In this document: positions 5,428-42,944 of the stretch, piece after piece
Position numbering within the stretch: the first letter of the stretch is position 1
Layout of the letters: every line of letters begins with the position of its first letter
From: Dehalogenimonas sp. W
GTDB taxonomy: Bacteria > Chloroflexota > Dehalococcoidia > Dehalococcoidales > Dehalococcoidaceae
Direction: 5' to 3'
Length of the DNA stretch: 64,000 nt
Assembly: GCF_037094495.1 (NCBI RefSeq)
Contig: NZ_CP146612.1
Span: 930,001 to 994,000, forward strand
Translations under genes and position numbers: made by a program
Notes under the pieces: generated by a model
What the model was told of the DNA's origin: nothing
The model's input: only the letters and a program-made list of their open reading frames with translations
Databases searched by the model: none

Positions 5428-5457
5428 ACCTTCTCCCGAACTTTTCCTCGCGGGCTA

Positions 5458-5625
5458 TATGCTACGGCAGGTCTTCTGGCTTCTGGCTCAAGCCTACTTC
5501 CGGCGCCTTCCCATCTTTTTCCAGAGATAGTGGCTGCTTGCCGGGTTCGTCACCAGTTACAGCGGCGGGACCGTATCCGAATTACACGGACTTCCCTATT
5601 AAGCTCTTGCGAGCACCGTACGCCC
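5458..5625 (-). ncRNA. Cobalamin riboswitch
   Basis: Read leftwards, the strand shows the conserved cobalamin aptamer elements in order: CGGTGCTCGC, then AATAGGGAAGTCCGTGTAAT, the B12 box CCCGCCGCTGTAACTGGTGA (5550-5569), and AAGCCAGAAGACCTGCC at the 3' side. Two terminators follow before the dehydrogenase gene. This architecture predicts that cobalamin binding lowers transcription of the dehydrogenase and TrpD-like genes. The exact ends of the RNA are estimates. Confidence 0.95.
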
Positions 5626-5643
5626 GATATTCAATTGGAGGGC

Positions 5644-28894: not shown

Positions 28895-29797
28895 TTATTG
28901 TAACCCGTCAACGACCTTGGTGGTCAAATCTGACATAAAGGTGAAGTATGAACCGTCCGCAGGTAACCGGGTGGGTGCCAGTTCCATTACCTTGATGCCG
29001 GTGGCGGCCGATATTTGCTGCACTACGGAGGGTGAAGTGCCGGTTTCGGTAAAAATGGCTTTAACGCCGGAAATCTTGATCTGAGTGACCAGAGCGGCGA
29101 TGTCTGAGGCGGATATCGCCGCCTGAGAGGACAGATTAGGTACTACTGAGCCGATGATTTCAAAGCCGTAGCGTCGGGCAAAATAGCCCATTGAATCGTG
29201 TCCGGTAACCAATTTACGGTCGGCAGGGGCGACGCCGCTGACCAGGTTTTCTATTTCAGCGTGGAGGCTGTCCAGACGGCTTTCCAAACTGCGGGCGGCG
29301 ACTGCGGTGTTCACGCCCAGAGTGGCTTGTATAACCGGAGCCAGAGCAGTGGCGACGCTTTTTACAGCCAGTGGGTCCAGCCAGAAATGGGGATCGGCAG
29401 CCCCGGTTTCCTGTGCTTCCTCGTTCAGCTCGCCTTCACCAACATACCGGATTTCAATATGATCGGCGGCAGTGAAAAGGCGCACGCCCCCGGCTGCGGC
29501 CTTGGCCACGGCCGATTCAATGCTGACTTCCAGGTGAAGTCCGTTCCAGACGATAAGGGCGGCCTTGTTCAGCTTCTCAATATCCCGAGCCGATGGCTCC
29601 CAGTCATGGGGGTCGGCCCCGTCAGGCATCAGAATGGTCACATTGGCGGTATTACCGACCAGTTCTTTGACAACCGCTCCCAGGATTGAATGGGTAACAA
29701 CGATGGATTGTTCGCTGACAGCTTTGCAGCCGACCACCAGTGTTGAACTGCTGACCAGCAGGAGCGCGAGTGCTGCCAATATCGACGGTCTTTTCAT
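28895..29797 (-). CDS. znuA: Zinc/manganese ABC transporter substrate-binding lipoprotein
   Basis: This 300-residue protein of the ZnuA/TroA cluster 9 family has a lipoprotein signal ending LLVSSSTLVVGC. Metal-binding residues are in the expected places: DPHDWEPS (about 62), DPHFWLDP (about 136), TGHDSMGYFARRYGF (about 198) and the late acidic FTETGTSP. It captures zinc (or manganese) outside the membrane for an ABC importer. It directly follows the Fur-type regulator (TGAATG junction). The cognate permease and ATPase are probably the pair at 34511-36140, 4.3 kb away. Confidence 0.92.
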   Translation of the reverse strand: MKRPSILAALALLLVSSSTLVVGCKAVSEQSIVVTHSILGAVVKELVGNTANVTILMPDGADPHDWEPSARDIEKLNKAALIVWNGLHLEVSIESAVAKAAAGGVRLFTAADHIEIRYVGEGELNEEAQETGAADPHFWLDPLAVKSVATALAPVIQATLGVNTAVAARSLESRLDSLHAEIENLVSGVAPADRKLVTGHDSMGYFARRYGFEIIGSVVPNLSSQAAISASDIAALVTQIKISGVKAIFTETGTSPSVVQQISAATGIKVMELAPTRLPADGSYFTFMSDLTTKVVDGLQ

Positions 29798-30220
29798 TCA
29801 GGCTTCCTGACAACTCCGGCAGTAACCGGCGAATTCCAGAGTATGTTCGGTGATGCGGAAACCGGTGTTCCGTTCAACGGCGGATTGCAGTTCCAGCGGA
29901 CAATGGTCGGTAAAATCCACCACATTGCCGCAGCCGCGGCAGACCAGATGGTGATGGTGTTCCGGTGGGCCGGCTCTGAAGCTGATGTGGTCGCCGTAAT
30001 TAAAACGGCAGAGCAGACCAAGTTTATCAAGCAAGGCCATCGTCCGATATACGGTTACCAATCCGATTTCCGGGTGGTCCGGCTTCAGTGCAGCGTGCAG
30101 GGATTGGTTGGTGACTGGATTAGCGCTTTTGACCAGGGCTGCAATCACCGCCCGGCGCTGGGGGGTTAATTTGTAACCGGCGGTTTTCAGCTGGTTGAGT
30201 AGTTGTTGTTGAGTGGACAT
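29798..30220 (-). CDS. zur: Fur-family regulator, probably Zur
   Basis: This 140-residue Fur-family protein has the winged helix (LTPQRRAVIAALV and GLVTVYRTMALLDKLGL) and the metal-rich HHHHLVCRGCG segment. Structural zinc cysteines are C94, C97, C134 and C137. Its stop abuts the znuA start, which makes a zinc-responsive role (Zur) more likely than iron. A short inverted repeat lies just upstream at 30234-30248. Confidence 0.88.
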   Translation of the reverse strand: MSTQQQLLNQLKTAGYKLTPQRRAVIAALVKSANPVTNQSLHAALKPDHPEIGLVTVYRTMALLDKLGLLCRFNYGDHISFRAGPPEHHHHLVCRGCGNVVDFTDHCPLELQSAVERNTGFRITEHTLEFAGYCRSCQEA

Positions 30221-30233
30221 TGCCCTATCTAAA

Positions 30234-30248
30234 TGAAAAACGGTTTCA
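30234..30248 (-). promoter_or_regulatory. Small inverted repeat upstream of zur
   Basis: TGAAA-AACGG-TTTCA is a 5-5-5 inverted repeat 14 nt before the zur start. It could be an autoregulatory site but is short and does not match a Zur consensus I know. Confidence 0.3.
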
Positions 30249-30302
30249 ATTAGATGTTAACAAAGGTTCAGCCGTGTGTCAACAGCCTGAATGATGCGAT
30301 GA

Positions 30303-31706
30303 CTAAGAGTTGTTTTGAGAAAACTTATTGCCGCGGGGCCAGGAGGCGAATACACCGACCAGACATAAACCGGTGAACATGGCGAAGGCTACCCGCAGAC
30401 TGGATACCAGCTCAACGTGGACTTCCGGTGAAATCTGGACCCGACCGATAATCAGGGCAAAGAGCAGCATCACGATACCGAGGGAAAACATCTGACCCAC
30501 CAGGCGCATGGTGGACAGTGTGGCTGAAGCGATGCCGTACTGACGCCGGGGTACAGCGCCCATGACGGCCGAGGAGTTGGGGGAGGAGAAGAACCCGAAA
30601 CCGGTACCCAGGATGATTAAAGCGGCAATCAGATAAAGCATGGCGGTGTTTTCGCTGATGAAGACCAGCATCGCCAGACCTGCCGTTGATAAACCCATGC
30701 CGATGGTCGCTAATGTTCGGGGATCAAAACGGTCAGCCAGCCGGCCGGCGTAGGGTGAAATAAAGGCCATCAGGATGGGCTGGGCCACTAAAATCAGGCC
30801 GGCTTCTGCCGGTGAAAAACCCTTGACGAACTGGAGATAAAGCGACAGCAAAAACCCTGTGGCGAAGGTGGCGGCGTAATTGATGAGGGTGGCGGCATTG
30901 GACAGGGCAAACACGGTGTTATAGCGGAATAGATTCAGTGAGAGAATCGGGTGCGGGGTGTGCCCTTCCAGAGCGATAAATCCCGCCATGCCTACGATAC
31001 CGATAACGGTCAGGATGAAGCCGGTGGTATCCGGTAACTCTGAAAAGCCCAGCATCAGTGTTGTCAGGCTCAAGCCGTATACCACAGCGCCTTTCAGGTC
31101 AAATCGCTCGTTGCTGGCTTCCTGCCATTCGGTTTTCAGCCGGGTAACGATGAAAAACAGCGCCACCAGGGCGATGGCGGCGGTAACGAAAAAGATACTG
31201 CGCCAGCCGAAGGATGAGGTCAGCAGGCCGCCGGCGGTTGGTCCCAGTGACAGGCCGATATAGACGGCGGCGGCGTTGATGCCCAATACCCGGCCGCGCT
31301 CCGCGGGCGGATAGACAGAGGTCAGGATGGCGATGCCGGTGCCGAACAGCAGTGCCGCGCTGATGCCCTGAGCGGCCCGCAGGCCAATGAGCTGGGCTCC
31401 GTTTTGGCTGAAGCCGATGGCAACGGAAACCAGGGTGTAAAGCACCAGCCCGGAGATGAAAATACGGCGGCGGCCTTTGATATCGGCCAGACGGCCGAAA
31501 GGCAGAAGGAATACCGCTGCGGCCAGGATATAGGTCGTGGCGACCCAGCCCAGGGTGATTGCATCCAGACCGAATTCCCGGCCGATAACCGGCAGGGCGA
31601 TATTGACCGAAGACCCCATGAACGGTGTCAGGAAGGAAGCTAGAACGGCGGCCGCCAGGGTCGCCCGCCGCACGGCGCGATTTGAGTTCTCGGCGGCGTC
31701 AGTCAA
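30303..31706 (-). CDS. MFS multidrug exporter (DHA2-like)
   Basis: This 467-residue membrane transporter has MFS motif A as FGRLADIKGRRRIFISG (about 72-88) and the motif C-like GLSLGPTAGGLLTSSFGWRSIF (partly shown) of drug:proton antiporters. About 14 hydrophobic segments fit the EmrB/QacA type. The start is a TTG at 31706 with GAGG upstream, 3 nt after the pyrD stop, so it is co-transcribed with pyrD. The substrate is unknown. Confidence 0.9.
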   Translation of the reverse strand: MTDAAENSNRAVRRATLAAAVLASFLTPFMGSSVNIALPVIGREFGLDAITLGWVATTYILAAAVFLLPFGRLADIKGRRRIFISGLVLYTLVSVAIGFSQNGAQLIGLRAAQGISAALLFGTGIAILTSVYPPAERGRVLGINAAAVYIGLSLGPTAGGLLTSSFGWRSIFFVTAAIALVALFFIVTRLKTEWQEASNERFDLKGAVVYGLSLTTLMLGFSELPDTTGFILTVIGIVGMAGFIALEGHTPHPILSLNLFRYNTVFALSNAATLINYAATFATGFLLSLYLQFVKGFSPAEAGLILVAQPILMAFISPYAGRLADRFDPRTLATIGMGLSTAGLAMLVFISENTAMLYLIAALIILGTGFGFFSSPNSSAVMGAVPRRQYGIASATLSTMRLVGQMFSLGIVMLLFALIIGRVQISPEVHVELVSSLRVAFAMFTGLCLVGVFASWPRGNKFSQNNS

Positions 31707-31709
31707 GGC

Positions 31710-32621
31710 TTACCTCGCTGCGCCGGTCAGGCAAGCCAGGTCGTTCAGGTTGTGCTGCCTCAGATAGGCGTCTAATCCATTAATAATGTCCAGCGGTGCC
31801 TGGGGGTTGACCAGGGCCGCGGTACCGACCTCGACCGCTGAGGCGCCGGCCATGATGAACTCCAGCGCGTCTTCGGCCGACATGATGCCCCCGCCGCCGA
31901 TGATGGGGATGGACACCGCTCCGGCGACCTGCCAGACCATGGCCAGGGCTACCGGTTTGATGGCCGGACCGGAGAGCCCACCGGTGATATTGCCCAGCAC
32001 CGGCTTGCGGTTTTTGACGCTTATGGCCATACCCCGCAGGGTGTTAATCAGTGATACGGCATCAGCGCCGGCTTTTTCCACCGCCCGTGCCAGCGCGGCG
32101 ATATCGGCGGTGTTGGGAGTGAGTTTGATGATAATCGGCAGGGATACCGCTTGTTTAACGGCGGCAGTCACTGTCGCAGCGGATTCCGGCGTGGAGCCGA
32201 ACTCCAGACAACCCGCTTTAACGTTAGGGCAGGAAATATTAATCTCTAACGCGGCGATACCGGGTATACCGTCAAGACGGCGGGCGAGCGACGCATATTC
32301 TTCCACCGAATCCGCGGCGATATTGACGATGACCGGGGTCGGCCATTGTCGCCACAGAGGGCTGTATTTTTCAATAACCGCCTCAACCCCGGGGTTTTGC
32401 AGGCCGATGGCGTTAAGCATGCCATAAGGCGTTTCCATGATGCGGGGCTGGGGGTTGCCGGCGCGGGGCTTCAGGGTGGTGCCTTTACAGATGAAAGCGC
32501 CGAGGTCGGCGATGTCATACAGGCGGTCCGGTTCATCACCGTAACCGGCAGTACCCGAAGCGGCAATGACAGGGTTTTTCAGTTTAAGACCGGGGAGCAG
32601 TTCTACGGAAAGGTTGGGCAT
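31710..32621 (-). CDS. pyrD: Dihydroorotate dehydrogenase, catalytic subunit
   Basis: This 303-residue flavoenzyme oxidises dihydroorotate to orotate in pyrimidine synthesis. It is the class 1B type: GTAGYGDE, NAIGLQNPG, INISCPNVK with the catalytic cysteine, NTLRGMA, GGLSGPAIKP and the FMN-phosphate loop GGGGIMSAEDALEF. Class 1B enzymes normally need PyrK, which is not adjacent. The start is the ATG at 32621; the frame stays open far upstream into rdhA1 but that part is not coding for this protein. Confidence 0.96.
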   Translation of the reverse strand: MPNLSVELLPGLKLKNPVIAASGTAGYGDEPDRLYDIADLGAFICKGTTLKPRAGNPQPRIMETPYGMLNAIGLQNPGVEAVIEKYSPLWRQWPTPVIVNIAADSVEEYASLARRLDGIPGIAALEINISCPNVKAGCLEFGSTPESAATVTAAVKQAVSLPIIIKLTPNTADIAALARAVEKAGADAVSLINTLRGMAISVKNRKPVLGNITGGLSGPAIKPVALAMVWQVAGAVSIPIIGGGGIMSAEDALEFIMAGASAVEVGTAALVNPQAPLDIINGLDAYLRQHNLNDLACLTGAAR

Positions 32622-32679
32622 GTGTTGATTATAAACCGCCTGTGGGGGGCGGGGCAAACGAGAGACGGGATAATATAGA

Positions 32680-32712
32680 GAAAGGCCTCCGCTGATTCGG
32701 CGGAGGCCTTTC
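32680..32712 (-). terminator. Terminator of rdhA1
   Basis: GAAAGGCCTCCGC (32680-32692) pairs with GCGGAGGCCTTTC (32700-32712) around the loop TGATTCG. The same stem follows rdhA2 at 39525-39555, but there the loop is the reverse complement, CGAATCA. Confidence 0.85.
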
Positions 32713-32730
32713 TGAGGGTCAATTGAAGGA

Positions 32731-34110
32731 TTAGTGATATTTCTGAGCGACATCGGAGCGGAGGCCACCGATGGGCTGAGCGGTAGTCCAAAACTCATCG
32801 GGGTCGCGCAGGCCGTAGCCCATGAGTTCGTCCATCTGGCGGAAGAATCCGTTGAAGACGGAGGTGGTGGAAGAAACAGCCTTGACGGTCTCGTGGACGA
32901 TGGCGTCGGTGTATTTGGTGAAGGTGCAGACACCGAGGCAGCGGCCGGCAACGCAGGAGTCAGCGTCCATCTTCCAGGCGCGGCACTTGCGGGAATCTTC
33001 AAACCAAGCCTCGTGGCCGGGGTTGTTCCAGGGGCCGACGGTGTCCCAGGTGGGATTGGTTTCGTGGGACAGGGCACCCTCGCCGCAGTGGTCGGCACAG
33101 AGTTTACAGGTGTAGCAGAAGCGGCGCATGCCGGCGTCAATGGGCTTGTCGTTGGGCAGGGGCATATTGGTGTAGTAGCGGAAGATGCCGACAGTAGGGC
33201 CGTATTCGGGGGTAATCATCCGGTTCATGCGGCCCATTTCACCGAGGCCGGAAACACCGCCGAAGCCGCAGGCATTGCCGGTATCGTTGTGACCTTTGGC
33301 GAGACACCAGTAGCCGAGGGTGCGGACGAAGCCCTGAGTGCGCTCCTGGATATTGGCGGCGCGGCCGTAGCGGATCTGGGCCATCAGCCAGGTGGGATTG
33401 TATTTGAAGAGGTCCTGGGATTCCATGTTGGATTGGGTGATGACGTTCATGCAGTCATTGGGGTGGACCTGCTTGTCAGTGGTTTCATAGGGGGCGTCAA
33501 CATCTTCCCAGACGAGTTGCTGGCGGTTGTTGGGGCCCCAGGAATAGGTAAGTTTGAAGGTAGTAGCCGGGTCCATCTGGGTGAAGCCGACGCTCATGGA
33601 ACCGAAGAAGCGCATGGCGGTACGCAGGAGGGCGGCGTTTTCTTCGGGGGTGCCGTTCCAGCGGGGAATGCCCAGCGATTCGGGGGTAGAGGTATTGGGA
33701 CCGATGAATGTATTGGAAACGGAACCGCGGTTAACGTTACTTGTAAATGCTTTATCAGCAAGAGAATAACCGGCCTTGTCCTGCGCGTTGTAACCTGCTT
33801 CAATCTCGGCCTTTTTATCCTTGCGGGCGTTCTGGTCTTCTACTGAGATATAGGTAGGCATATAGGTGCCGGCACTGCCGCGCATGGTGTCGCCTTCGCG
33901 GAAGCGTTTGTACTGGGTCCAGTCAACTTCGTTGGTGGTCTTGTCAACGGTTTTGACCCACCAGGGGCGATTGAAAGAGCCGGCCTGGATCATTTCATCA
34001 AGGTCATTGAATTTGGGGGCGACAAGGGAAGTGACGCCGAGGCCGGCCCCGGCAAAGCCGAGGGCTTTCATGAAATCCCGGCGGGAAACAGTACTGTGAA
34101 AATTAGACAT
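32731..34110 (-). CDS. rdhA: Reductive dehalogenase RdhA, copy 1
   Basis: This 459-residue corrinoid/FeS enzyme should reduce an organohalide as terminal respiratory electron acceptor outside the membrane. It has a Tat signal (SRRDFMK at 9-15), a corrinoid-binding region with RTQGFVRTLGYWCL, and two cluster motifs: C332-x2-C335-x2-C338-x3-C342 and C376-x9-C386-x4-C391-x3-C395. The second motif has an x4 gap where many RdhAs have x2, and no proline after the last cysteines. The ATG at 34110 follows AAGGAGAG; 49 open codons upstream belong to the leader. It differs from rdhA2 almost only at residues 91-124. No rdhB is adjacent. Substrate unknown. Confidence 0.95.
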   Translation of the reverse strand: MSNFHSTVSRRDFMKALGFAGAGLGVTSLVAPKFNDLDEMIQAGSFNRPWWVKTVDKTTNEVDWTQYKRFREGDTMRGSAGTYMPTYISVEDQNARKDKKAEIEAGYNAQDKAGYSLADKAFTSNVNRGSVSNTFIGPNTSTPESLGIPRWNGTPEENAALLRTAMRFFGSMSVGFTQMDPATTFKLTYSWGPNNRQQLVWEDVDAPYETTDKQVHPNDCMNVITQSNMESQDLFKYNPTWLMAQIRYGRAANIQERTQGFVRTLGYWCLAKGHNDTGNACGFGGVSGLGEMGRMNRMITPEYGPTVGIFRYYTNMPLPNDKPIDAGMRRFCYTCKLCADHCGEGALSHETNPTWDTVGPWNNPGHEAWFEDSRKCRAWKMDADSCVAGRCLGVCTFTKYTDAIVHETVKAVSSTTSVFNGFFRQMDELMGYGLRDPDEFWTTAQPIGGLRSDVAQKYH

Positions 34111-34134
34111 TAAACTCTCCTTAATATTTCTCTT

Positions 34135-34169
34135 GCGGTCTTGCCCGCCGTCATCCGGTCTCTCCCGGA
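34135..34169 (-). ncRNA. Tandem-hairpin RNA leader of rdhA1
   Basis: Read leftwards: TCCGG-GAGAGA-CCGGA (34169-34154), a 5-nt linker, then GCGG-GCAAGA-CCGC (34148-34135), ending 24 nt before the start codon. Both loops are six bases of the form GNNAGA. The same pair precedes rdhA2 and rdhA3. The rest of the 400-nt gap up to znuC is AT rich; I see no palindrome or promoter like those of rdhA2 and rdhA3. Confidence 0.65.
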
Positions 34170-34510
34170 AGTCAGAGTCATTAAAACCTCCACGCATATA
34201 GTTGTTAATAACGACGTAATTATGATAACGCCTTTTAGTGTTTATGCCATCGTCCAAAAGGACTAGTGGCTCTAAGCATTTTGGGTATAGACAAAGGTAT
34301 AAAAAATACGCGACTAAAGTATATTAATAAGAAAAATGAGACTAAAATATTCGGACCATGATAAGACAGCCGGTTTTGGAGTGCGGTGAAAAACAGCAGG
34401 AATAGTACTGCAGACGAGGATATCTTTGGACAAACAGGTCTATATTTACATGCAGATTTACGGTTGAAGGAGTTGCCGGATTTAAAAAATTCGGTGGTTT
34501 GTTGATATTC

Positions 34511-35296
34511 CTATTTTCGTTCGTGATCGTGACTGTGACCACATTCCAGAATTGTGATGGGTTTCTGGTTAGGGTCAATAGCTATACCAAAGGTGTCCAT
34601 GAGTGACTGGGTGGTGATGACTTCAGCCGGCGGGCCCAGGGCTACCACCCGGTGCGCCATCAGCATGACCTGATGGCAGAGCGAGGCCTCTTCATGGATG
34701 TCATGGGTGGCCACCACTACGGCAGCGCCGCGACAGAGTTCATCCCGAGCGGCTTGAAGGTAGAGTTCCCGGCCGCCGGCATCAAGCCCGGAAGTCGGCT
34801 CATCCAGAATCAGCAGGTCGGCATGGTGCGCCAGTACCTGGGCCAGATAGATGCGCTGTTGCTGGCCGCCGGAAAGCGAACGCAACGGGGCATCAGCGAG
34901 TCCGGTGACTCCCATAACTTTCATGGCGTCCTGAACGCGGGCTTCATCATCTCCGGTAAATTGACCAAGTAGACCACGATGCGGAAAGCGACCCATGCGC
35001 ACTACGTCAACCGCCCGCAGCGGCAGGACAAACCCGGAGGCGTGAAACTGTCCCAAATAAGCGATGCGTTTGGGCTGACGTCCCGGCCGGGAGTTGAAAA
35101 CATTTATCTCGCCTGATAGCGGCGGCAGTAATCCGGCGATGGTTTTCAACAGGGTGGATTTGCCTGAGCCGTTGGTGCCGATGAGGGCGATTCCCTGACC
35201 GGAATTGAGCCCAAAATTAATATCTGCTACGACCGAAACGCCTTCGTAACCGATATTGAGGCTACTGGCGGCAATTACTGCTGAATCAGCCATCAT
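34511..35296 (-). CDS. znuC: Zinc/manganese ABC transporter ATP-binding protein
   Basis: This 261-residue ABC ATPase has Walker A GTNGSGKS, signature LSGGQQQR and Walker B LLILDEPTSGLD. The histidine-rich tail CGHSHDHERK and the neighbouring family 3 permease mark it as a zinc/manganese importer component. Two ATGs start the frame (35296, 35293); the second has better spacing from GGAGGG. It overlaps the permease end by about 10 nt. The binding protein is probably ZnuA at 28895. Confidence 0.9.
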   Translation of the reverse strand: MMADSAVIAASSLNIGYEGVSVVADINFGLNSGQGIALIGTNGSGKSTLLKTIAGLLPPLSGEINVFNSRPGRQPKRIAYLGQFHASGFVLPLRAVDVVRMGRFPHRGLLGQFTGDDEARVQDAMKVMGVTGLADAPLRSLSGGQQQRIYLAQVLAHHADLLILDEPTSGLDAGGRELYLQAARDELCRGAAVVVATHDIHEEASLCHQVMLMAHRVVALGPPAEVITTQSLMDTFGIAIDPNQKPITILECGHSHDHERK

Positions 35297-36140
35297 GCCC
35301 TCCGGTTTCCGGCAGTGCGGCGCGCGGTTTAAGATTCTTAACGATAAAAACGGTAAAGAATATCAGGGTAGCCACCAGAATAACTGAGGCGCCGGCGGCC
35401 AGATTAAAGTGGTAACTTAATAGCAGGCCGATATACATTGACAGCGAGCCGAACAGCGCGGCCCAGGCCATCATGGCCCCGATGCGTCGGGCAATCAGCG
35501 CACCGGCCCCCGCCGGCGCTATCAACAGGCCGAAAACCAGCAGCGTGCCCACGGTCTGGAAAGAGATGATGATGGTCGCGGCAATCATTATCAGCATGAT
35601 ATTGTGATAGAGCCCGGACGAAAAACCAGCCACCTGAGCCTGTTCCGGATCAAAAGCCAGCAACAGGAAGCCCCGGGCGAAAATAAAGGCGACAAGGGCG
35701 ATAATTAAAGTGGCGATAAATTGAAGCAGAATATCACTCCATGATGTCCCCAGTAATTCGCCAAAGAGGATGCGGGTCAGGTCACCGGAAAAAGAGCTTG
35801 ATTGGGAGACGATTACCACGCCCAGCGCCAGCATCCCGACGAATAGCAGCCCGATAGCGGTATCCGACGACAGGCGGGAACGGCGGGTAATCAGGCTGAC
35901 GCCGCCAATCATTACCGCAGCACCGATGGCGGCACCGATAATGCCTGAAAAACCCATAATCACCGCCAGAGCGATACCGGGCAATACGCCGTGAGCCAGG
36001 GCATCGCCGATAAAGGCCAATCCCCGCAACACCATAAATGTTCCGGCAACGGCGCAGGCCACTGACACCAGTATTCCGGCTGTCAGCGCCTGGGTCATGA
36101 AAAGATTATCGGAAAAAGGGGCAATCAGGGCGTCAAACAT
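35286..36140 (-). CDS. znuB: Zinc/manganese ABC transporter permease
   Basis: This 284-residue membrane protein is an ABC-3 family (ZnuB/MntB/TroC) permease with about eight helices. The family hallmarks GLAFIGDALAHGVLPGIALA and the late LLVFGLLIAPAGAGALIARR are present. It is the first gene of a two-gene operon with the ATPase. It and the ATPase are separated from znuA-zur by the MFS, pyrD and rdhA1 genes. Confidence 0.93.
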   Translation of the reverse strand: MFDALIAPFSDNLFMTQALTAGILVSVACAVAGTFMVLRGLAFIGDALAHGVLPGIALAVIMGFSGIIGAAIGAAVMIGGVSLITRRSRLSSDTAIGLLFVGMLALGVVIVSQSSSFSGDLTRILFGELLGTSWSDILLQFIATLIIALVAFIFARGFLLLAFDPEQAQVAGFSSGLYHNIMLIMIAATIIISFQTVGTLLVFGLLIAPAGAGALIARRIGAMMAWAALFGSLSMYIGLLLSYHFNLAAGASVILVATLIFFTVFIVKNLKPRAALPETGGHDG

Positions 36141-36224
36141 TGACGGGATAACCCCCGTTTTCCCAACAGTCAGGTGCGCAAGATTTCAGCATTTGCCGTC
36201 CATTATAGGTTCGTTGCCTCTGCC

Positions 36225-39083
36225 TTACAATACCCGGCGGTTTCTGACGGTTACAGCCAGTACCAACAGCAGCAGGACGATGGCACCGCCCATGCCGGCT
36301 AATGTCAGGCCGAGCCATTCAGGGATGGCCATTTCTAGCCCTTGGGGGACTGTAGTGGTGACGGTCGGTGTCGGTTGAGGGGGTTCTGGTACGGCCACCG
36401 GCGGAGCCACGGCAAAACCGGATACGGCGCTCCAGGCGGAGTTGGTGGCGGTACTTACCGCCCTGACTTTCCAGTAATAGGTTTTGCCCGCCTCAAGCGA
36501 TGTTTCCGATTGCCAGGCGTTGCCGGCAATCGCCGTCTGATTGATTATAATCCCGGCGAATCCGGAGTCAGTCGCTACCATCAGGTCATAGGTGTCGGCA
36601 TCGCTGACCGGTCTCCACTGGAAGATCGGTCTCAGTCCCAGGTCCACTGCCCCGGGGGCGGGGGTAATCAGCTCGGGTACGGTAAAAGTTCCGCCCAGGG
36701 CGGTGGTGAAAGACCACTTATCCGACCACGGTCCTGGTACCGGTGTGGCGGCACGAACACGCCAGTAATAAGTGGTATTCGGCTCCAGGTTATTCAGCTT
36801 TGCGGTTAGGGCGGTAGTTGTGTCTTCAAAAAGAGGTGACGACATACCTGTACTGTCATTGACCTGCCACTCATAGCTGCCGGCACCGCTGATTGACTGC
36901 CATTTGAGGTTAATGCCGGAGATGGCACCGGAGGAAAAATCACCCAGACCTCCGGCAGCGGCTGTTGGTGATGTCAGCTGCACCGGCTCCGCCAGGGTAT
37001 CGGTATAGGTCATTATGCGTTGATTGGTTGTATCCAGCGTCCATATTTGGCGTCCGATGACAGCGATGCCCTCCAAGGTTGCACCGTCCGGCAAACCGGC
37101 GCGAGTCAGGAACCATGAGGCGTCATCGGATAATGCCCGAATCAGGCCGCCGGTAGTGTCGCTGATCTCGGTATAACTTGAGGCGTAGATGATGTTGTCC
37201 CTGGTTACGGCCAGCCCGCTGATCAGGGTATCAGCCGGCAAACCTGAATCAAGCCTGTCCCAGTCGGTACCACCGATGGTGAAACGGTGAATACCTTTAT
37301 CCAAGCTATCATTTGCGGCATAAATTTTGCCGCTTGTACTGAAATCCGGATCAAAAACCAGCCGGATTTCGCCGGAAAGCGGTAGGTCGGGCAGCGAGGT
37401 GAAGGTGACGCCGGCGTTCGTAGAAATCAGGACTTTGCCGTCGTCAGCGGTGGCGACTAACGTTTGATCTGTTGTGAAAGCCGGGGAAAGTTCAAGCGCG
37501 GTTATCCGCTGGTCACCGGCGGCAACGGGGGTAAAGAACTGGGCGTCTCGGTGCCAGACTTGAGCCAGCGTACCGTCATCAGTGGAGAATATTAGCTGAT
37601 TTGTATTTTCTACCGCCAACCGCGAAGAATTATTAATCGGAACCGGCAAGTCCAGAACTTCAAATGTCGTACCTTTGTTATCTGAAATCAGACAAATTCC
37701 GTTACCGGAGGTCTGTGCCAGAATATATAAAGATCCACTATCAGTGATGGTGATTTGCGGGACTTCGCTGATGCCGTATTCTCCGGCATCAAGGATCATT
37801 TGCCAGGACAAGCCGGCATTTTCTGTCAGCCAAAGAGTATGACCTGAATTGAAGCCCAACACATAAAGCGTTTGGTCGGAGGCATAATTCGGGGATGGCA
37901 GGACTTTTACCAGAGTGCCGGCGCCGTTTTGGTCAATCAAGGCGGTGGGTAACCAAGTTGAACCCTGGTCAACCGATTTATATATTCCGCTGCCGGCACC
38001 TGAAGACGCGGCATAAACTGTTCCTCCCAGGTCGGTTAAAGCCGAGATACTGTCGCCGGCAGGGTTCCTCACGGCTGTCTGCCAGTTAATGCCGCCATCG
38101 GCGGAATTATATACATTGCCCGATGCTGTGCCACCGGTAAGGCTGTAACTGCCGGATAAGCCTCTGACTGACATGCAGGTGAAATCCTCATTCAAGTTTG
38201 AAGCTATTGGAAAAACCACCGGAAGCTGTGGTCCTGCCTGGTAGAAACCCAGCCACACGCCGCCTTTATCAGCATCTCCACTGTCAATGCCGACATAAAA
38301 TTGGGCATTGTTCAGAAGTGCGAAGTCTTCAGGCAAAACCAGGTTGCCGGCAATAGCCGTTACGCTGGCGGTGTCATCGTGTTTTAATTCGGTTTGACCC
38401 CAGATGCCGGCGTTGAAAACCATGATAAAAGTATCGTTGCCATCGGTGGCCAGCGCCAACAGCGTGCGATCAGTCTCAAAGGTCGGAGAAAAACTGACGT
38501 CCAGGGCATCATAGCTGCCAATACCGGTATCTATCCAGCTGCCGGAGAAGGCGGTTTCATCGTATAAATAGACGCCGCCCGACATTCCCGGAGCCGTATC
38601 GGTTACGGAAACCGCGATAAGGTTGCCTTGTGCCCGGCGGTAGATAGACATACCGGTAACCTGCTTGTCGGGACCTCCCGGTTGGGAGGCTATTTGTTGG
38701 AAAGTCCCGCCGTCGTCTATGGAACGGAATACGGCTGTTTCAGTGGCATAATAGATATGACCTTCGGCAGTTATGTTCAGGGCGACCGGAATATTGATTG
38801 AAGCGTACACTCTGGTGAATTTATCATCTGAGGTATTGGTTCGGAATAGCCCTCCACCGTCCCCGGTGACCCAGGCATAAAGCCGTCCGTACTGGTCGGT
38901 AGTCAGGTGAGTCACATCGGTCCCCGGCGCCAGTGCCCAACCGCCGGCAGCTTCCGTTCGGGGGAGGGGTATTTCCGACCAGCGGGCGTCAGCAGCGGCA
39001 GAGGGATGAGGATTGGGAATCAGCAGGAAGGTCAGGGACAGGAGCAGAGAAGCGGCCAGACGGGTGAAAGAAGTAGTTTTCAT
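36225..39083 (-). CDS. Large secreted beta-propeller/FnIII-like protein, membrane anchored
   Basis: This protein of about 952 residues begins with a signal peptide (KTTSFTRLAASLLLSLTFLL then PSAAA). Residues about 35-700 are BNR/Vps10-type repeats with many Asp-box-like pieces such as SIDDGGTF, SADGGINW, SVDQGSTW and TENAGLSW, predicting a beta-propeller. Two fibronectin III-like segments follow (GSYEWQVNDS...TTYYWRVRA and KTYYWKVRAVS), then a proline/threonine linker and a C-terminal helix with a basic RNRRVL stop. It is thus exported and held by its C-terminus. Start codon uncertain: 39083, 39092 and 39140 are all in frame. Binding to a sugar or protein partner is possible; no enzyme motif is seen. 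Confidence 0.82.
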   Translation of the reverse strand: MKTTSFTRLAASLLLSLTFLLIPNPHPSAAADARWSEIPLPRTEAAGGWALAPGTDVTHLTTDQYGRLYAWVTGDGGGLFRTNTSDDKFTRVYASINIPVALNITAEGHIYYATETAVFRSIDDGGTFQQIASQPGGPDKQVTGMSIYRRAQGNLIAVSVTDTAPGMSGGVYLYDETAFSGSWIDTGIGSYDALDVSFSPTFETDRTLLALATDGNDTFIMVFNAGIWGQTELKHDDTASVTAIAGNLVLPEDFALLNNAQFYVGIDSGDADKGGVWLGFYQAGPQLPVVFPIASNLNEDFTCMSVRGLSGSYSLTGGTASGNVYNSADGGINWQTAVRNPAGDSISALTDLGGTVYAASSGAGSGIYKSVDQGSTWLPTALIDQNGAGTLVKVLPSPNYASDQTLYVLGFNSGHTLWLTENAGLSWQMILDAGEYGISEVPQITITDSGSLYILAQTSGNGICLISDNKGTTFEVLDLPVPINNSSRLAVENTNQLIFSTDDGTLAQVWHRDAQFFTPVAAGDQRITALELSPAFTTDQTLVATADDGKVLISTNAGVTFTSLPDLPLSGEIRLVFDPDFSTSGKIYAANDSLDKGIHRFTIGGTDWDRLDSGLPADTLISGLAVTRDNIIYASSYTEISDTTGGLIRALSDDASWFLTRAGLPDGATLEGIAVIGRQIWTLDTTNQRIMTYTDTLAEPVQLTSPTAAAGGLGDFSSGAISGINLKWQSISGAGSYEWQVNDSTGMSSPLFEDTTTALTAKLNNLEPNTTYYWRVRAATPVPGPWSDKWSFTTALGGTFTVPELITPAPGAVDLGLRPIFQWRPVSDADTYDLMVATDSGFAGIIINQTAIAGNAWQSETSLEAGKTYYWKVRAVSTATNSAWSAVSGFAVAPPVAVPEPPQPTPTVTTTVPQGLEMAIPEWLGLTLAGMGGAIVLLLLVLAVTVRNRRVL

Positions 39084-39171
39084 GGAGCGCATTTTACGAG
39101 GCAAATGACGGGGCGTCAAGAAACTGCCGGCGTGATTCAATCCGGCTGGTGAAAGCAGTCAGTAAGTAAAG

Positions 39172-39456
39172 CTATTCCGGTAACTCTGCTCCGCTGCCGC
39201 GAGAACCTGAATCATCCATTTTTTCCACTTCAATGGTACATTCAGTCACCAGCGCGGCAAAAGCACCGATTGCGGCCAGTACCGGGGCTGCCAGAATACC
39301 GACCGCCGCTACCGGAGCGCCTACCGATAGCGGGATGTCTATAATGGTACGCCCGTCATGGATTAGTCTCACCCGCCGGATGTTGCCCTCCCGAATCAGT
39401 TCCTTGATTCTGGATAAGACTTTGTCACCGGATACGGTAAATTTCTCAGTTGCCAT
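39172..39456 (-). CDS. DUF4342 family protein
   Basis: This 94-residue protein matches the DUF4342 family: an N-terminal UBA-like helical part (SGDKVLSRIKELIREGNIRRV), a short beta segment LIHDGRTIIDIPLSVG, and a hydrophobic glycine/alanine stretch (PVAAVGILAAPVLAAIGAFAAL) that may enter the membrane. Function unknown. It lies alone between the secreted propeller protein and rdhA2, on the same strand, with an AGGAGG-like sequence before the start. Confidence 0.8.
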   Translation of the reverse strand: MATEKFTVSGDKVLSRIKELIREGNIRRVRLIHDGRTIIDIPLSVGAPVAAVGILAAPVLAAIGAFAALVTECTIEVEKMDDSGSRGSGAELPE

Positions 39457-39524
39457 TTCAGCCTCCTGGCAGATTTCTTATCTTCTACTATAGCACTCGT
39501 CAGGGCGTGTTGGAAGCGCTAAAA

Positions 39525-39555
39525 AAAGGCCTCCGCCGAATCAGCGGAGGCCTTT
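39525..39555 (-). terminator. Terminator of rdhA2
   Basis: AAAGGCCTCCGC (39525-39536) pairs with GCGGAGGCCTTT (39544-39555) around the loop CGAATCA. Read leftwards it runs into a T tract (AAAA on the plus strand). The sequence shared with rdhA1 ends exactly here, and the loop is inverted relative to rdhA1. Confidence 0.9.
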
Positions 39556-39574
39556 CTGAGGGTCAATTGAAGGA

Positions 39575-40954
39575 TTAGTGATATTTCTGAGCGACATCGG
39601 AGCGGAGGCCGCCGATGGGCTGAGCGGTAGTCCAAAACTCGTTGGGGTCGCGCAGGCCGTAGCCCATGAGTTCGTCCATCTGGCGGAAGAAGCCGTTGAA
39701 GACGGAGGTGGTGGAAGAAACAGCCTTGACGGTCTCGTGGACGATGGCGTCGGTGTATTTGGTGAAGGTGCAGACACCGAGGCAGCGGCCGGCAACGCAG
39801 GAGTCGGCATCCATCTTCCAGGCGCGGCACTTGCGGGAATCTTCAAACCAGGCCTCGTGGCCGGGGTTGTTCCAGGGGCCGACGGTGTCCCAGGTGGGAT
39901 TGGTTTCGTGGGACAGGGCACCCTCGCCGCAGTGGTCGGCGCAGAGTTTGCAGGTGTAGCAGAAGCGGCGCATGCCGGCGTCAATGGGCTTGTCGTTGGG
40001 CAGGGGCATGTTGGTGTAGTAGCGGAAGATGCCGACAGTGGGACCGTATTCGGGGGTAATCATCCGGTTCATGCGGCCCATCTCGCCGAGGCCGGAAACA
40101 CCGCCGAAGCCGCAGGCATTGCCGGTATCGTTGTGACCTTTGGCGAGACACCAGTAGCCGAGGGTGCGGACGAAGCCCTGAGTGCGCTCCTGGATATTGG
40201 CGGCGCGGCCGTAGCGGATCTGGGCCATCAGCCAGGTGGGATTGTATTTGAAGAGGTCCTGGGATTCCATGTTGGATTGGGTGATGACGTTCATGCAGTC
40301 ATTGGGGTGGACCTGCTTGTCAGTGGTTTCATAGGGGGCGTCAACATCTTCCCAGACGAGTTGCTGGCGGTTGTTGGGGCCCCAGGAATAGGTAAGTTTG
40401 AAGGTAGTAGCCGGGTCCATCTGGGTGAAGCCGACGCTCATGGAACCGAAGAAGCGCATGGCGGTACGCAGGAGGGCGGCGTTTTCTTCGGGGGTGCCGT
40501 TCCAGCGGGGAATGCCCAGCGATTCGGGGGTAGAGGTATTGGGACCGATGAATGTATTGGAAACGGAACCGCGGTTAACGTTATCAGTAAAAGCTTTATC
40601 AGCTAATGTATAACCGGCCTTGCTCTGAGAATTGTAGTTATATTCAACCTCCTTTTTTTTGTCCTGACGGGCCTTCTGATCATCCACCGAGATGTAAGTA
40701 GGCATATAGGTACCGGCGCTGCCGCGCATGGTGTCGCCTTCACGGAAGCGTTTGTACTGGGTCCAGTCGACTTCGTTGGTAGTCTTGTCAACGGTTTTGA
40801 CCCACCAGGGGCGGTTGAAAGAGCCGGCCTGAATCATTTCATCAAGGTCATTGAATTTGGGGGCGACAAGGGAAGTGACGCCAAGGCCGGCCCCGGCGAA
40901 GCCGAGGGCTTTCATGAAATCCCGACGGGAAACGGTACTGTGAAAATTGGACAT
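39575..40954 (-). CDS. rdhA: Reductive dehalogenase RdhA, copy 2
   Basis: This 459-residue RdhA is identical to copy 1 except for 11 substitutions clustered between residues 91 and 124 and one D/N change at 438. It has the same Tat signal and FeS cysteines (332, 335, 338, 342; 376, 386, 391, 395). The variable patch lies just N-terminal to the corrinoid-binding core. Its promoter, with a palindrome like that of rdhA3, lies 140-185 nt upstream, and it has the tandem-hairpin leader. No rdhB is adjacent. The near-identity shows recent duplication or gene conversion. Confidence 0.95.
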   Translation of the reverse strand: MSNFHSTVSRRDFMKALGFAGAGLGVTSLVAPKFNDLDEMIQAGSFNRPWWVKTVDKTTNEVDWTQYKRFREGDTMRGSAGTYMPTYISVDDQKARQDKKKEVEYNYNSQSKAGYTLADKAFTDNVNRGSVSNTFIGPNTSTPESLGIPRWNGTPEENAALLRTAMRFFGSMSVGFTQMDPATTFKLTYSWGPNNRQQLVWEDVDAPYETTDKQVHPNDCMNVITQSNMESQDLFKYNPTWLMAQIRYGRAANIQERTQGFVRTLGYWCLAKGHNDTGNACGFGGVSGLGEMGRMNRMITPEYGPTVGIFRYYTNMPLPNDKPIDAGMRRFCYTCKLCADHCGEGALSHETNPTWDTVGPWNNPGHEAWFEDSRKCRAWKMDADSCVAGRCLGVCTFTKYTDAIVHETVKAVSSTTSVFNGFFRQMDELMGYGLRDPNEFWTTAQPIGGLRSDVAQKYH

Positions 40955-40978
40955 TAGAATCTCCTTAATATTTCTCTT

Positions 40979-41013
40979 ACGGTCTTGCCCGCCGTCATCC
41001 GGTCTCTCCCGGA
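40979..41013 (-). ncRNA. Tandem-hairpin RNA leader of rdhA2
   Basis: Read leftwards: TCCGG-GAGAGA-CCGGA (41013-40998), a 5-nt linker, then GCGG-GCAAGA-CCGT (40992-40979), where the outer pair becomes G-U, so the stem is kept. It ends 24 nt before the start codon. Confidence 0.65.
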
Positions 41014-41093
41014 AGTCAGTCTGGCAGTGTGTCCTCCTTAAATAAAATCCAACCCACTTAATATAAGTTAAGGATGCTTACCTTACAGTATTT

Positions 41094-41138
41094 ATTATCA
41101 GTTAAAAAGGAGAATCGGTCAATACGCCAAATGGCGTA
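41094..41138 (-). promoter_or_regulatory. rdhA2 promoter with abutting palindrome
   Basis: On the minus strand TACGCCATTTGGCGTA (41138-41123, arms of 7 around 2) is followed directly by a -35 TTGACC (41122-41117), 17 bp, and a -10 GATAAT (41099-41094). The implied start near 41087 gives a leader of about 130 nt. rdhA3 has the same arrangement. Confidence 0.75.
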
Positions 41139-41198
41139 ATTATAATTAGAATATCTTAATAAAAATTGGGGAATTGTAATTTCAAAAATACAAAAGGG

Positions 41199-41226
41199 AA
41201 GGGAGGGGCAACTTAGCCCCTCCCTT
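41199..41226 (-). terminator. Terminator of rdhA3
   Basis: AAGGGAGGGGC (41199-41209) pairs with GCCCCTCCCTT (41216-41226) around a 6-nt loop, followed leftwards by CCCTTTTG. It lies between rdhA3 and the rdhA2 promoter. Confidence 0.8.
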
Positions 41227-41248
41227 AAGAGATTTACTGTTAAAAGAA

Positions 41249-42631
41249 CTAGTAGTTTTCCAGGCCGACCGAGCCTTCCACGCCGAAGATTGGAACCGGC
41301 TGCTCCCAGAAGGTGGCCGGGTCTTTGAGACCGTCGCCGTAGAAGATATCGTCCATGCTGCGGAAGAAGCCGTTGAAGAGCGGAGTAGTAGAAGCAATGC
41401 CTTTCACAAAACTGTGAACCGAAGCCTTCTCGTACTTGGTGAAGGTGCAGACCGAGAGACAGCGGCCGGCATTGCAGGTGCCGGGCAGCATCTTCCAGGC
41501 ACGGCATTTGCGGGAATCTTCAAACCATTCTTTGTGGCCGGGATTGTTCCACGGGCCGGAAACATCCCAGGTCGGCTCCTTCTCAAAGGAGATGGCACCT
41601 TCGCCGCAACCGTCAGCGCATTTCATGCAGGTCTGGCAGAAGCGCATGAAACCGGCGTCAATGGGTTTTTCATCGGGCAGGGGCAGGTCGGTGACATAAC
41701 GGAAGACACCGACCGTGGGACCCCATTCGGTGGAGATCATGCGGTTCATGCGACCCATTTCACCCATACCGGCCATAACGCCGAAAGCCGGGGCGATGCC
41801 GGTACCGTTACCGCCCTCAGACAGAGCGTAATAACCCAGAGAAGTCATGAAGCCCTGGAATAGCGACTGAATCCACTGACCGCGGGGATAGCGGATTTGC
41901 ACCTGGAGGGGAGTGGGGTTGCGTTTCCAGAGTTCCTGACTTTCCTGATTGACAACGGTGATGACCCATTTGCACTTGCGGGGGTAGATTTGTTCGGTGG
42001 AGGTTTCTGATGCCGTATCCACGTCGGCAAAGGTGTATTTTACCTTGTTGTTAGGCCCGTACTCGTACATCAGCTTCATGGTGGTGTCTTCATGGAGCTC
42101 GGTAAAACCAACGGCCATCATGCCGTGGAAACGGAGGAAGGTGCGGACCATCGCGGCATTCTCTTCTTTGGTGCCTTCCCATTTGGGGACGCCGGTTTTT
42201 TCCGGTGAATTAGCGGCTGGTCCCAGGAATGTATTGGCACTTAGGCCCTTGGTAGCATTACCAGCGAAAGCGTAGTCACGGGTGGTGTAGCCGGGTTTCT
42301 TTTCGGCTTTCCACGCAGTCTCAGTTTCTGATTTATCGGCCGCCCGGCGTTTCTGTTCATCAGCGTCGATATAAGTCAACTGATATTCGGTACCTTTGCC
42401 GCGCATGGTGTTGCCTTCACTGAACTTCTTCATTTGAGTCCAGTCAACTTCAGAGGTGGGATTGTCAACGGTGCGGGCCCACCAGGGGCGGGAGATGCTG
42501 CCGCGGGAAATGACATCGTCAAGGTCCTTAAAACCGGGAGCCGCCAGAGCGGCGCCGCCGACACCAGCGGTAGCAAAGCCGAGCCCTTTCATGAAATCTC
42601 TGCGGGAAACGGTGCTGTGAAAATTGGTCAT
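41249..42631 (-). CDS. rdhA: Reductive dehalogenase RdhA, copy 3 (diverged)
   Basis: This 460-residue RdhA is a clear paralogue of copies 1 and 2, roughly half identical by eye. The Tat signal reads VSRRDFMKGLGFATAG. First cluster motif: FCQTCMKCADGC (C-x2-C-x2-C-x3-C). Second: C-x9-C-x4-C-x3-C in KCRAWKMLPGTCNAGRCLSVC. The LGY segment (FMTSLGYYAL), which includes a candidate catalytic tyrosine, is conserved. Start at 42631 with AGGAGA upstream. It shares the promoter type and palindrome with rdhA2 and the leader hairpins with both. No rdhB is adjacent. Substrate unknown. Confidence 0.95.
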   Translation of the reverse strand: MTNFHSTVSRRDFMKGLGFATAGVGGAALAAPGFKDLDDVISRGSISRPWWARTVDNPTSEVDWTQMKKFSEGNTMRGKGTEYQLTYIDADEQKRRAADKSETETAWKAEKKPGYTTRDYAFAGNATKGLSANTFLGPAANSPEKTGVPKWEGTKEENAAMVRTFLRFHGMMAVGFTELHEDTTMKLMYEYGPNNKVKYTFADVDTASETSTEQIYPRKCKWVITVVNQESQELWKRNPTPLQVQIRYPRGQWIQSLFQGFMTSLGYYALSEGGNGTGIAPAFGVMAGMGEMGRMNRMISTEWGPTVGVFRYVTDLPLPDEKPIDAGFMRFCQTCMKCADGCGEGAISFEKEPTWDVSGPWNNPGHKEWFEDSRKCRAWKMLPGTCNAGRCLSVCTFTKYEKASVHSFVKGIASTTPLFNGFFRSMDDIFYGDGLKDPATFWEQPVPIFGVEGSVGLENY

Positions 42632-42658
42632 TAGAATCTCCTATAATTTAATCTTTTC

Positions 42659-42694
42659 GCGGTCTTTGCCCGCTGTCATCCGGTCTCTCCCGGA
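42659..42694 (-). ncRNA. Tandem-hairpin RNA leader of rdhA3
   Basis: Read leftwards: TCCGG-GAGAGA-CCGGA (42694-42679), a 5-nt linker, then GCGG-GCAAAGA-CCGC (42673-42659), here with a 7-nt loop. It ends 27 nt before the start codon. The flanking leader has diverged from rdhA1/2 but the hairpins have not. Confidence 0.65.
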
Positions 42695-42773
42695 GGTCAT
42701 TAAAGAAGGGAATTCTCCTTTCAAGTATTTATAAACTAAGAAAATATAAAGAAACTTAGCTCAGATGGAATGT

Positions 42774-42818
42774 ATTATCCACCAAAACCTAATCAAAGAC
42801 AATACGCCATATGGCGTA
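42774..42818 (-). promoter_or_regulatory. rdhA3 promoter with abutting perfect palindrome
   Basis: On the minus strand TACGCCATATGGCGTA (42818-42803) is followed directly by a -35 TTGTCT (42802-42797), 17 bp, and a -10 GATAAT (42779-42774). The palindrome extends to 18 bp (ATACGCCATATGGCGTAT, 42802-42819). The geometry matches rdhA2 base for base. Confidence 0.75.
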
Positions 42819-42944
42819 TAAATAATTAGGAAATGATAACCTTGTTATTTCCCGGCGGTCTGGAGGCGATAAATCGCCGGTTGCCTTTAGCTCAGCTTTA
42901 GCGATAAAATAATAAACCGCATTTTGCCCGGGAAGAGGACTTAT

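Follow-up and report, generated by a model that had tools for sequence, protein, structure and literature searches.

The three reductive dehalogenase (rdhA) genes in a 64,000-nucleotide (nt) stretch of the Dehalogenimonas sp. W genome (contig NZ_CP146612.1, positions 930,001 to 994,000; hereafter the window) are preceded by leaders that combine an upstream Shine-Dalgarno site (SD1) with small hairpins, each of which follows a UGRC motif. We regard it as virtually certain that this rdhA leader is a real conserved structured RNA element; the covariation of its stems and its recurrence before the rdhA genes of other Dehalococcoidaceae carry this conclusion. On its function our proposal is tentative, possible rather than probable: the element may be a ribosome-docking leader that protects rdhA mRNAs. 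The window is part of a single-contig genome of 1,772,240 bases, and 28 rdhA genes have been reported for "Candidatus Dehalogenimonas loeffleri" strain W (PMC11737167).

All three genes of the window lie on the minus strand, as do the leader features given below, and their products are reductive dehalogenases of family PF13486: rdhA1 (32731..34110, start ATG at 34110-34108; E 3e-21), rdhA2 (39575..40954; E 3.2e-20) and rdhA3 (41249..42631; E 1.4e-19). A sequence-only reading of the window had placed two tandem hairpins before each gene, and both are present at those positions on this strand. Hairpin 1 is TCCGG-GAGAGA-CCGGA in every leader (34154..34169 for rdhA1, 40998..41013 for rdhA2 and 42679..42694 for rdhA3). 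Hairpin 2 is GCGG-GCAAGA-CCGC in rdhA1 (34135..34148); the G-U at its outer (last) pair in rdhA2 (40979..40992) and its seven-base loop, GCAAAGA, in rdhA3 (42659..42673), which the same reading had pointed out, can both be read in the sequence. All six hairpins are matched by the covariance model R1 described below. The distances from the hairpins to the start codon, which had been put at 24 to 27 nt, measure 24 nt for rdhA1, 24 nt for rdhA2 and 27 nt for rdhA3, and sequence comparison bears out the remark that the rdhA3 hairpins have been kept while the remainder of that leader has diverged. The 49-50 nt cores of the three leaders fold 2.0-3.2 standard deviations below their dinucleotide shuffles.

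The two-hairpin description was correct as far as it went, but it was incomplete: it lacked SD1, the frequent AUG, the UGRC motif that belongs to each hairpin, the copies with one or three hairpins and the predicted promoters upstream. In the rdhA1 leader, SD1 reads GGAGG (34187..34191), would be the upstream ribosome-docking site, and has a GGAGG-like counterpart, 12-15 nt before UGRC, in most of the 90 leaders compared here. It is followed by an AUG (AUG1, 34179..34181), which opens a frame of 23 codons with a stop that overlaps the start of rdhA1 and with a peptide not conserved across copies, and by the first UGAC motif (34171..34174), assigned from the sequence and from leader comparison. 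The rdhA2 leader has the GGAGG at 41033..41037, without an AUG at the usual distance, and its first UGAC at 41015..41018. In the rdhA3 leader, SD1 is GGAG (42715..42718) and the first UGAC lies at 42696..42699.

The element extends well beyond the window. The covariance model R1, built from five equal-length copies of the window's genome, finds 12 copies in that genome at E<1e-6, every one upstream of an rdhA gene. At E<=0.1 the model has matches in all 11 Dehalococcoidaceae genomes searched, which represent two genera, with 7-23 matches each. About 100 loci were oriented and their downstream gene was checked, and all precede rdhA except for intragenic matches (E above ~1e-4) that were set aside; the leader statistics reported here rest on the approximately 90 distinct rdhA leaders. 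A second model, R2, built from 49 copies, adds strong copies upstream of rdhA in one further family of the order (L118, L166, L174). The weak matches inspected had E above ~1e-4 with R1, and several of those obtained with R2 in other families reached 1e-5 or 1e-6; they were mostly intragenic, and we judged them to be chance. A scan of 393 genomes of the class for the tandem-loop pattern returned few, scattered matches outside Dehalococcoidaceae and one related family. At L119, L120 and L121, which belong to other families of the order, GGGAAAGACC hairpins, one or two per locus, precede genes whose exported products are not RdhA; from their sequences we read these products as one large and one small secreted protein and a TRAP-type substrate-binding lipoprotein.

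The comparison of leaders defines a repeated unit composed of UGRC, 1-2 nt, a stem of 4-5 base pairs and a GARAGA-type loop, and a leader carries one to three such units. SD1 resembles AAGGAGGT, with at least five of eight matches in 89 of the 90 distinct leaders, and usually lies 11-15 nt before UGRC. The stem of hairpin 1 typically reads NYCGG/CCGRN, with about five pairs, and carries the loop GAGAGA or GAAAGA. Hairpin 2 follows a second UGRC and has a four-pair stem of very variable sequence with the loop GAAAGA, CAAAGA or GCAAGA. Downstream of the hairpins, 15-45 nt hold the gene's own Shine-Dalgarno site and the start codon. Some copies have a single hairpin, and a few (L030, L041, L045) carry a third one, whose loop is GACAGA or GAAAGA when read by eye; the counts of single and triple hairpins depend on a simple rule or on such reading. 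In some folds the two UGRC motifs pair with each other around hairpin 1, but UGRC is also present in copies with one hairpin, where it has no partner, and we therefore rejected this pairing as a general feature. The enclosing CUCU/AGAG helix of the rdhA1 fold was not seen in the other copies inspected.

According to the sequence-only reading, the leaders looked as if they were under selection for RNA structure, and the variation of the stems strongly supports this view. In alignment A7, 95.4% of the cells are standard pairs, two-sided changes occur at all nine of the nine stem pairs, and the two-sided cells number 70, as against 21±4 in shuffles. Because A7 had been fitted to the model, the covariation test was repeated with an alignment anchored on the loop alone. 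In this alignment, all four stem pairs of hairpin 2, and pairs 2 and 5 of hairpin 1, exceed all 5,000 shuffles, although the significance is overstated in the shuffle tests because homologous copies are not independent. The changes are typically of the kind CCGG/CCGG to CTGG/CCAG or TCAG/CTGA, and GCGG/CCGC to TTTGG/CCAAA or TATAG/CTA. The covariance-model search that had been suggested together with that reading thus yielded both further copies upstream of other rdhA genes and compensatory changes within them. The same data leave next to no room for the view that the hairpins are a relic of gene duplication, or a site acting in DNA through recombination or protein binding, with no function as RNA. 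Such a view could appeal to the close duplication of rdhA1 and rdhA2 and to the mobility of Dehalococcoides rdhA islands (PMC3146451), but it is contradicted by compensatory covariation over two genera, by the fixed spacing to SD1, by a placement that is always on the rdhA sense strand, and by the divergence of the rest of the leaders.

The placement of SD1 suggests what the structured part of the leader may be facing. When paired with the 3′ end of 16S rRNA, for which the standard sequence was used rather than that of the window's genome, SD1 forms 6.4 nt of pairing on average, the gene's own site 5.8 and a control stretch 3.3. SD1 keeps a nearly constant distance from the first pair of hairpin 1 (18.6±2.2 nt), whereas the stretch between that pair and the rdhA start is more variable in length (64±7.5 nt, approximately 50-85 nt). 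Of the 90 leaders, 66 have a start codon after SD1 (AUG in 55), and AUG1 lies 7-9 nt before UGRC in 49 of 89, where ~1.6 would be expected per position. Counted from the A of AUG1, the first pair of hairpin 1 comes 12.9±1.2 nt later, at about +14. Toeprints at +15/+16 place the leading edge of an initiating ribosome near +14. This coincidence of the first pair with the ribosome's leading edge is our main reason for a ribosome-centred model.

A start codon at this position could also belong to a translated leader peptide. Under leader-peptide attenuation, a short upstream open reading frame (ORF), of the kind xGRDRMTAGKT, would be the conserved entity and the hairpins a by-product of its codons, and the rdhA1 frame, opened by AUG1 and closed by a stop that overlaps the start of rdhA, has similar open counterparts in many copies. 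However, the AUG1 codons of the leaders are distributed over the three frames relative to the hairpins (21/20/14), the ORFs range from 1 to 39 codons, with about a dozen of only 1-3 codons, and 24 of the 90 leaders have no start codon after SD1. Moreover, the paired changes in the stems alter the would-be amino acids, and neither a conserved peptide nor a conserved frame was found among the 90 leaders. These mixed frames, variable lengths and missing start codons indicate that the position of initiation has been kept and the peptide product has not. Attenuation of this type is largely refuted, and we consider it very improbable.

The model that we prefer, in which the leader docks a ribosome, can be set out as follows. 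The element would act in cis as a transcribed 5′ leader consisting of SD1, in most cases an AUG that precedes the first UGRC by 6-9 nt, and one to three UGRC-hairpin units. A 30S subunit or an initiating ribosome would dock at SD1, and the first hairpin would lie at the mRNA entry edge of the docked ribosome and hold it there. The ribosome could then shield the 5′ end from 5′-to-3′ decay by RNase J, as in the STAB-SD leaders of Bacillus, and might also supply ribosomes to the rdhA start. The outcome would be a long-lived and well-translated mRNA for an enzyme that slow growers need in quantity, whichever transcription regulator acts upstream. We know of no STAB-SD leader with an array of UGRC hairpins at a fixed distance. 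Leaders of the cryIIIA type in Bacillus also have a strong Shine-Dalgarno site that needs no start codon, such sites stabilise mRNAs in Bacillus and in bacteria lacking RNase E (PMC3997798), and RNase J (TIGR00649) scores above the cut-off in all 11 genomes.

Three observations weigh against ribosome docking as a full account. Copies with one hairpin exist, and the tandem structure is therefore not essential. The element is nearly confined to rdhA genes in Dehalococcoidaceae, although protection of mRNA would be useful elsewhere. Finally, the stems vary more than the UGRC motif and the AGA bases of the loop; the conservation of loop and motif goes beyond what simple steric blocking would require and suggests recognition of the sequence. 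This last observation is also the first argument for the main rival, in which an RNA-binding protein would bind the hairpin units and control how the mRNAs of the whole rdhA set are translated or degraded, for example according to the electron acceptor or the redox state. Repetition of the unit one to three times is often seen for protein sites, and the element is common to a family-wide set of rdhA genes with differing promoters. We consider such a protein conceivable but doubtful: no candidate was found, and the tight spacing to SD1 and AUG1 would be unaccounted for unless the protein blocks those sites.

Two known classes of protein-binding leaders had been mentioned in the sequence-only reading as poor fits, and this caution was justified. 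CsrA (PF02599) is encoded in none of the 11 genomes, in a search whose control was positive in three, and the main loops GAGAGA, GAAAGA, GCAAGA and CAAAGA lack the GGA of CsrA sites, a triplet that appears here only when the closing pair is included or in the less common loop GGAAGA; we rejected a CsrA-binding leader. The targets of ANTAR proteins are likewise pairs of short tandem hairpins in mRNA leaders, with loops of six bases, but they carry A at loop position 1 and G at position 4, whereas the loop here is of the GARAGA type, with G at position 1 of hairpin 1 in 75 of 82 copies and A at position 4, and there is no overlap with a terminator. We rejected this class as well on the loops; a gene for an ANTAR-domain regulator was found in 0 of the 11 genomes, in a search that was also silent in its positive-control genomes.

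A third possibility is a riboswitch-like aptamer for a small molecule, for example a corrinoid or a halogenated compound. The guanidine-II (mini-ykkC) riboswitch shows that known small riboswitches can consist of two short tandem hairpins before the Shine-Dalgarno site of the gene; it differs from the rdhA leader in having ACGR tetraloops instead of GARAGA hexaloops, and the rdhA element occurs with one or three hairpins too. Rfam 15 gave no match over the element, either at the gathering score or up to E 5; a mir-198 match that overlaps the L046 leader on the opposite strand was judged to be chance. Among the weak riboswitch candidates of a 2024 screen, Narunsky et al. listed an "rdhA motif", WRC-34-1, represented 18 times and mostly in Dehalococcoides (PMC11109978), and the earlier statement that no leader element had been described for rdhA genes is accordingly outdated. 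As its text passages describe it, WRC-34-1 is likewise a candidate structured RNA that directly precedes reductive dehalogenase genes and was obtained by comparing intergenic regions; it comprises 18 representatives against approximately 90 distinct leaders over two genera here, and those passages do not contain the unit, the SD1 geometry, the wide distribution, the exclusion of a peptide or a mechanism. By this text description WRC-34-1, for which no Rfam entry was found, may be the same element, a subset of it or another structure. We consider sensing of a ligand improbable for the rdhA leader. The unit is only ~20 nt long, with a hexaloop and no junction, the folds show neither a terminator nor a switch that sequesters the Shine-Dalgarno site, and related units occur in transfer-messenger RNA (tmRNA) and before a few unrelated exported-protein genes, where sensing of an rdhA ligand is implausible.

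The element follows promoters of several unrelated types. A sigma-70 promoter is predicted before rdhA2 (TTGACC-17-GATAAT, 41094..41122, minus strand) and before rdhA3 (TTGTCT-17-GATAAT, 42774..42802, minus strand), in each case upstream of the element. The palindrome TACGCCAAATGGCGTA (41123-41138) adjoins the first of these and ATACGCCATATGGCGTAT (42802-42819) lies at the second. Palindromes of this TACGCC-n-GGCGTA form adjoin or overlap the predicted -35 of rdhA promoters in 13 of the 90 leaders and are probably repressor sites. The rdhA1 promoter belongs to another class, with a putative activator box, CTTAGAGCCACTAGTCCTTTTGGACGATG (34248..34278, minus strand), of a type common to 17 of the 90 leaders. 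Several other copies have a TATAAT-like hexamer 50-55 nt before SD1, from which a leader of ~120 nt is predicted; over all copies pooled, no sharp peak of -10 hexamers was found. At least three operator types can be distinguished, namely the TACGCC/GGCGTA palindrome (13 leaders), the AGTCCTTTnGTACGATG box (17) and ATCGTATAC repeats (6), with perhaps a fourth (3). Since several operator and promoter types carry the same element, it is not tied to one regulator. One rdhA gene with a AGTCCTTTnGTACGATG box (L004) has a gene for a LuxR-type response regulator upstream, and this type of box may therefore be a response-regulator site.

The control of rdhA genes has been described mainly at the level of transcription, through MarR-type and two-component regulators, and their products are the working enzymes in the bioremediation of chlorinated solvents. 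A structured leader common to rdhA genes under different regulators would add a shared post-transcriptional layer to this control. It could also explain which rdhA transcripts yield protein, a point of relevance to the use of rdhA mRNA as a biomarker. A comparative Dehalogenimonas study of 2026 (PMC13390414) discusses MarR-family control of rdhA; no leader element came up when it was searched by terms.

The unit also has counterparts in a stable RNA. A search of 84,980 species for the exact pattern of two linked units returned 20 records, of which two are from Dehalococcoidia, one is a probable chance match (L199) and 17 are from Acidimicrobiia or Sumerlaeota (within L188-L207). Rfam, ARAGORN or both confirmed tmRNA at 15 of these 17, and the other two are similar by sequence; the matches come from two phyla and are not independent within each. 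Like the rdhA leader, these tmRNAs contain arrays of UGAC hairpins, located in the pseudoknot region and with loops read by eye as GAAAGA, GAGAGA or GACAGA, but there the array is part of a stable RNA and not of an mRNA leader. Islands carrying rdhA insert at ssrA. The tmRNA of Dehalococcoidaceae itself is without the motif, and we therefore rejected derivation of the element from that tmRNA. Two sources of this likeness are conceivable, a shared module that faces the ribosome and convergent evolution towards a stable hairpin. We regard as unlikely the broader hypothesis that UGRC with a GARAGA-loop hairpin is a general ribosome-contacting module whose arrays serve some tmRNAs in their pseudoknot region and Dehalococcoidia mRNA leaders at the mRNA entry of a ribosome parked at a dedicated docking site; the parked ribosome would then control or protect rdhA mRNAs, and the leader would be of a new type. 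A resemblance that proved real would indicate a small RNA module, facing the ribosome, that has yet to be named.

Some features of the surroundings of these genes may be added. The coding sequences of rdhA1 and rdhA2 (32731-34110 and 39575-40954) are near-identical paralogues ~6.8 kb apart, and no obvious rdhB was noticed among their neighbours when the translations were read. Judging from the translations, rdhA1 is flanked on both sides by genes (28895-36140) that look like those of an ABC uptake system for zinc/manganese, with a binding protein, a Fur-type regulator, an ATPase and a permease. RdhA enzymes need a corrinoid, and a cobalamin riboswitch is located at 5449-5635 on the minus strand of the window (103 bits).

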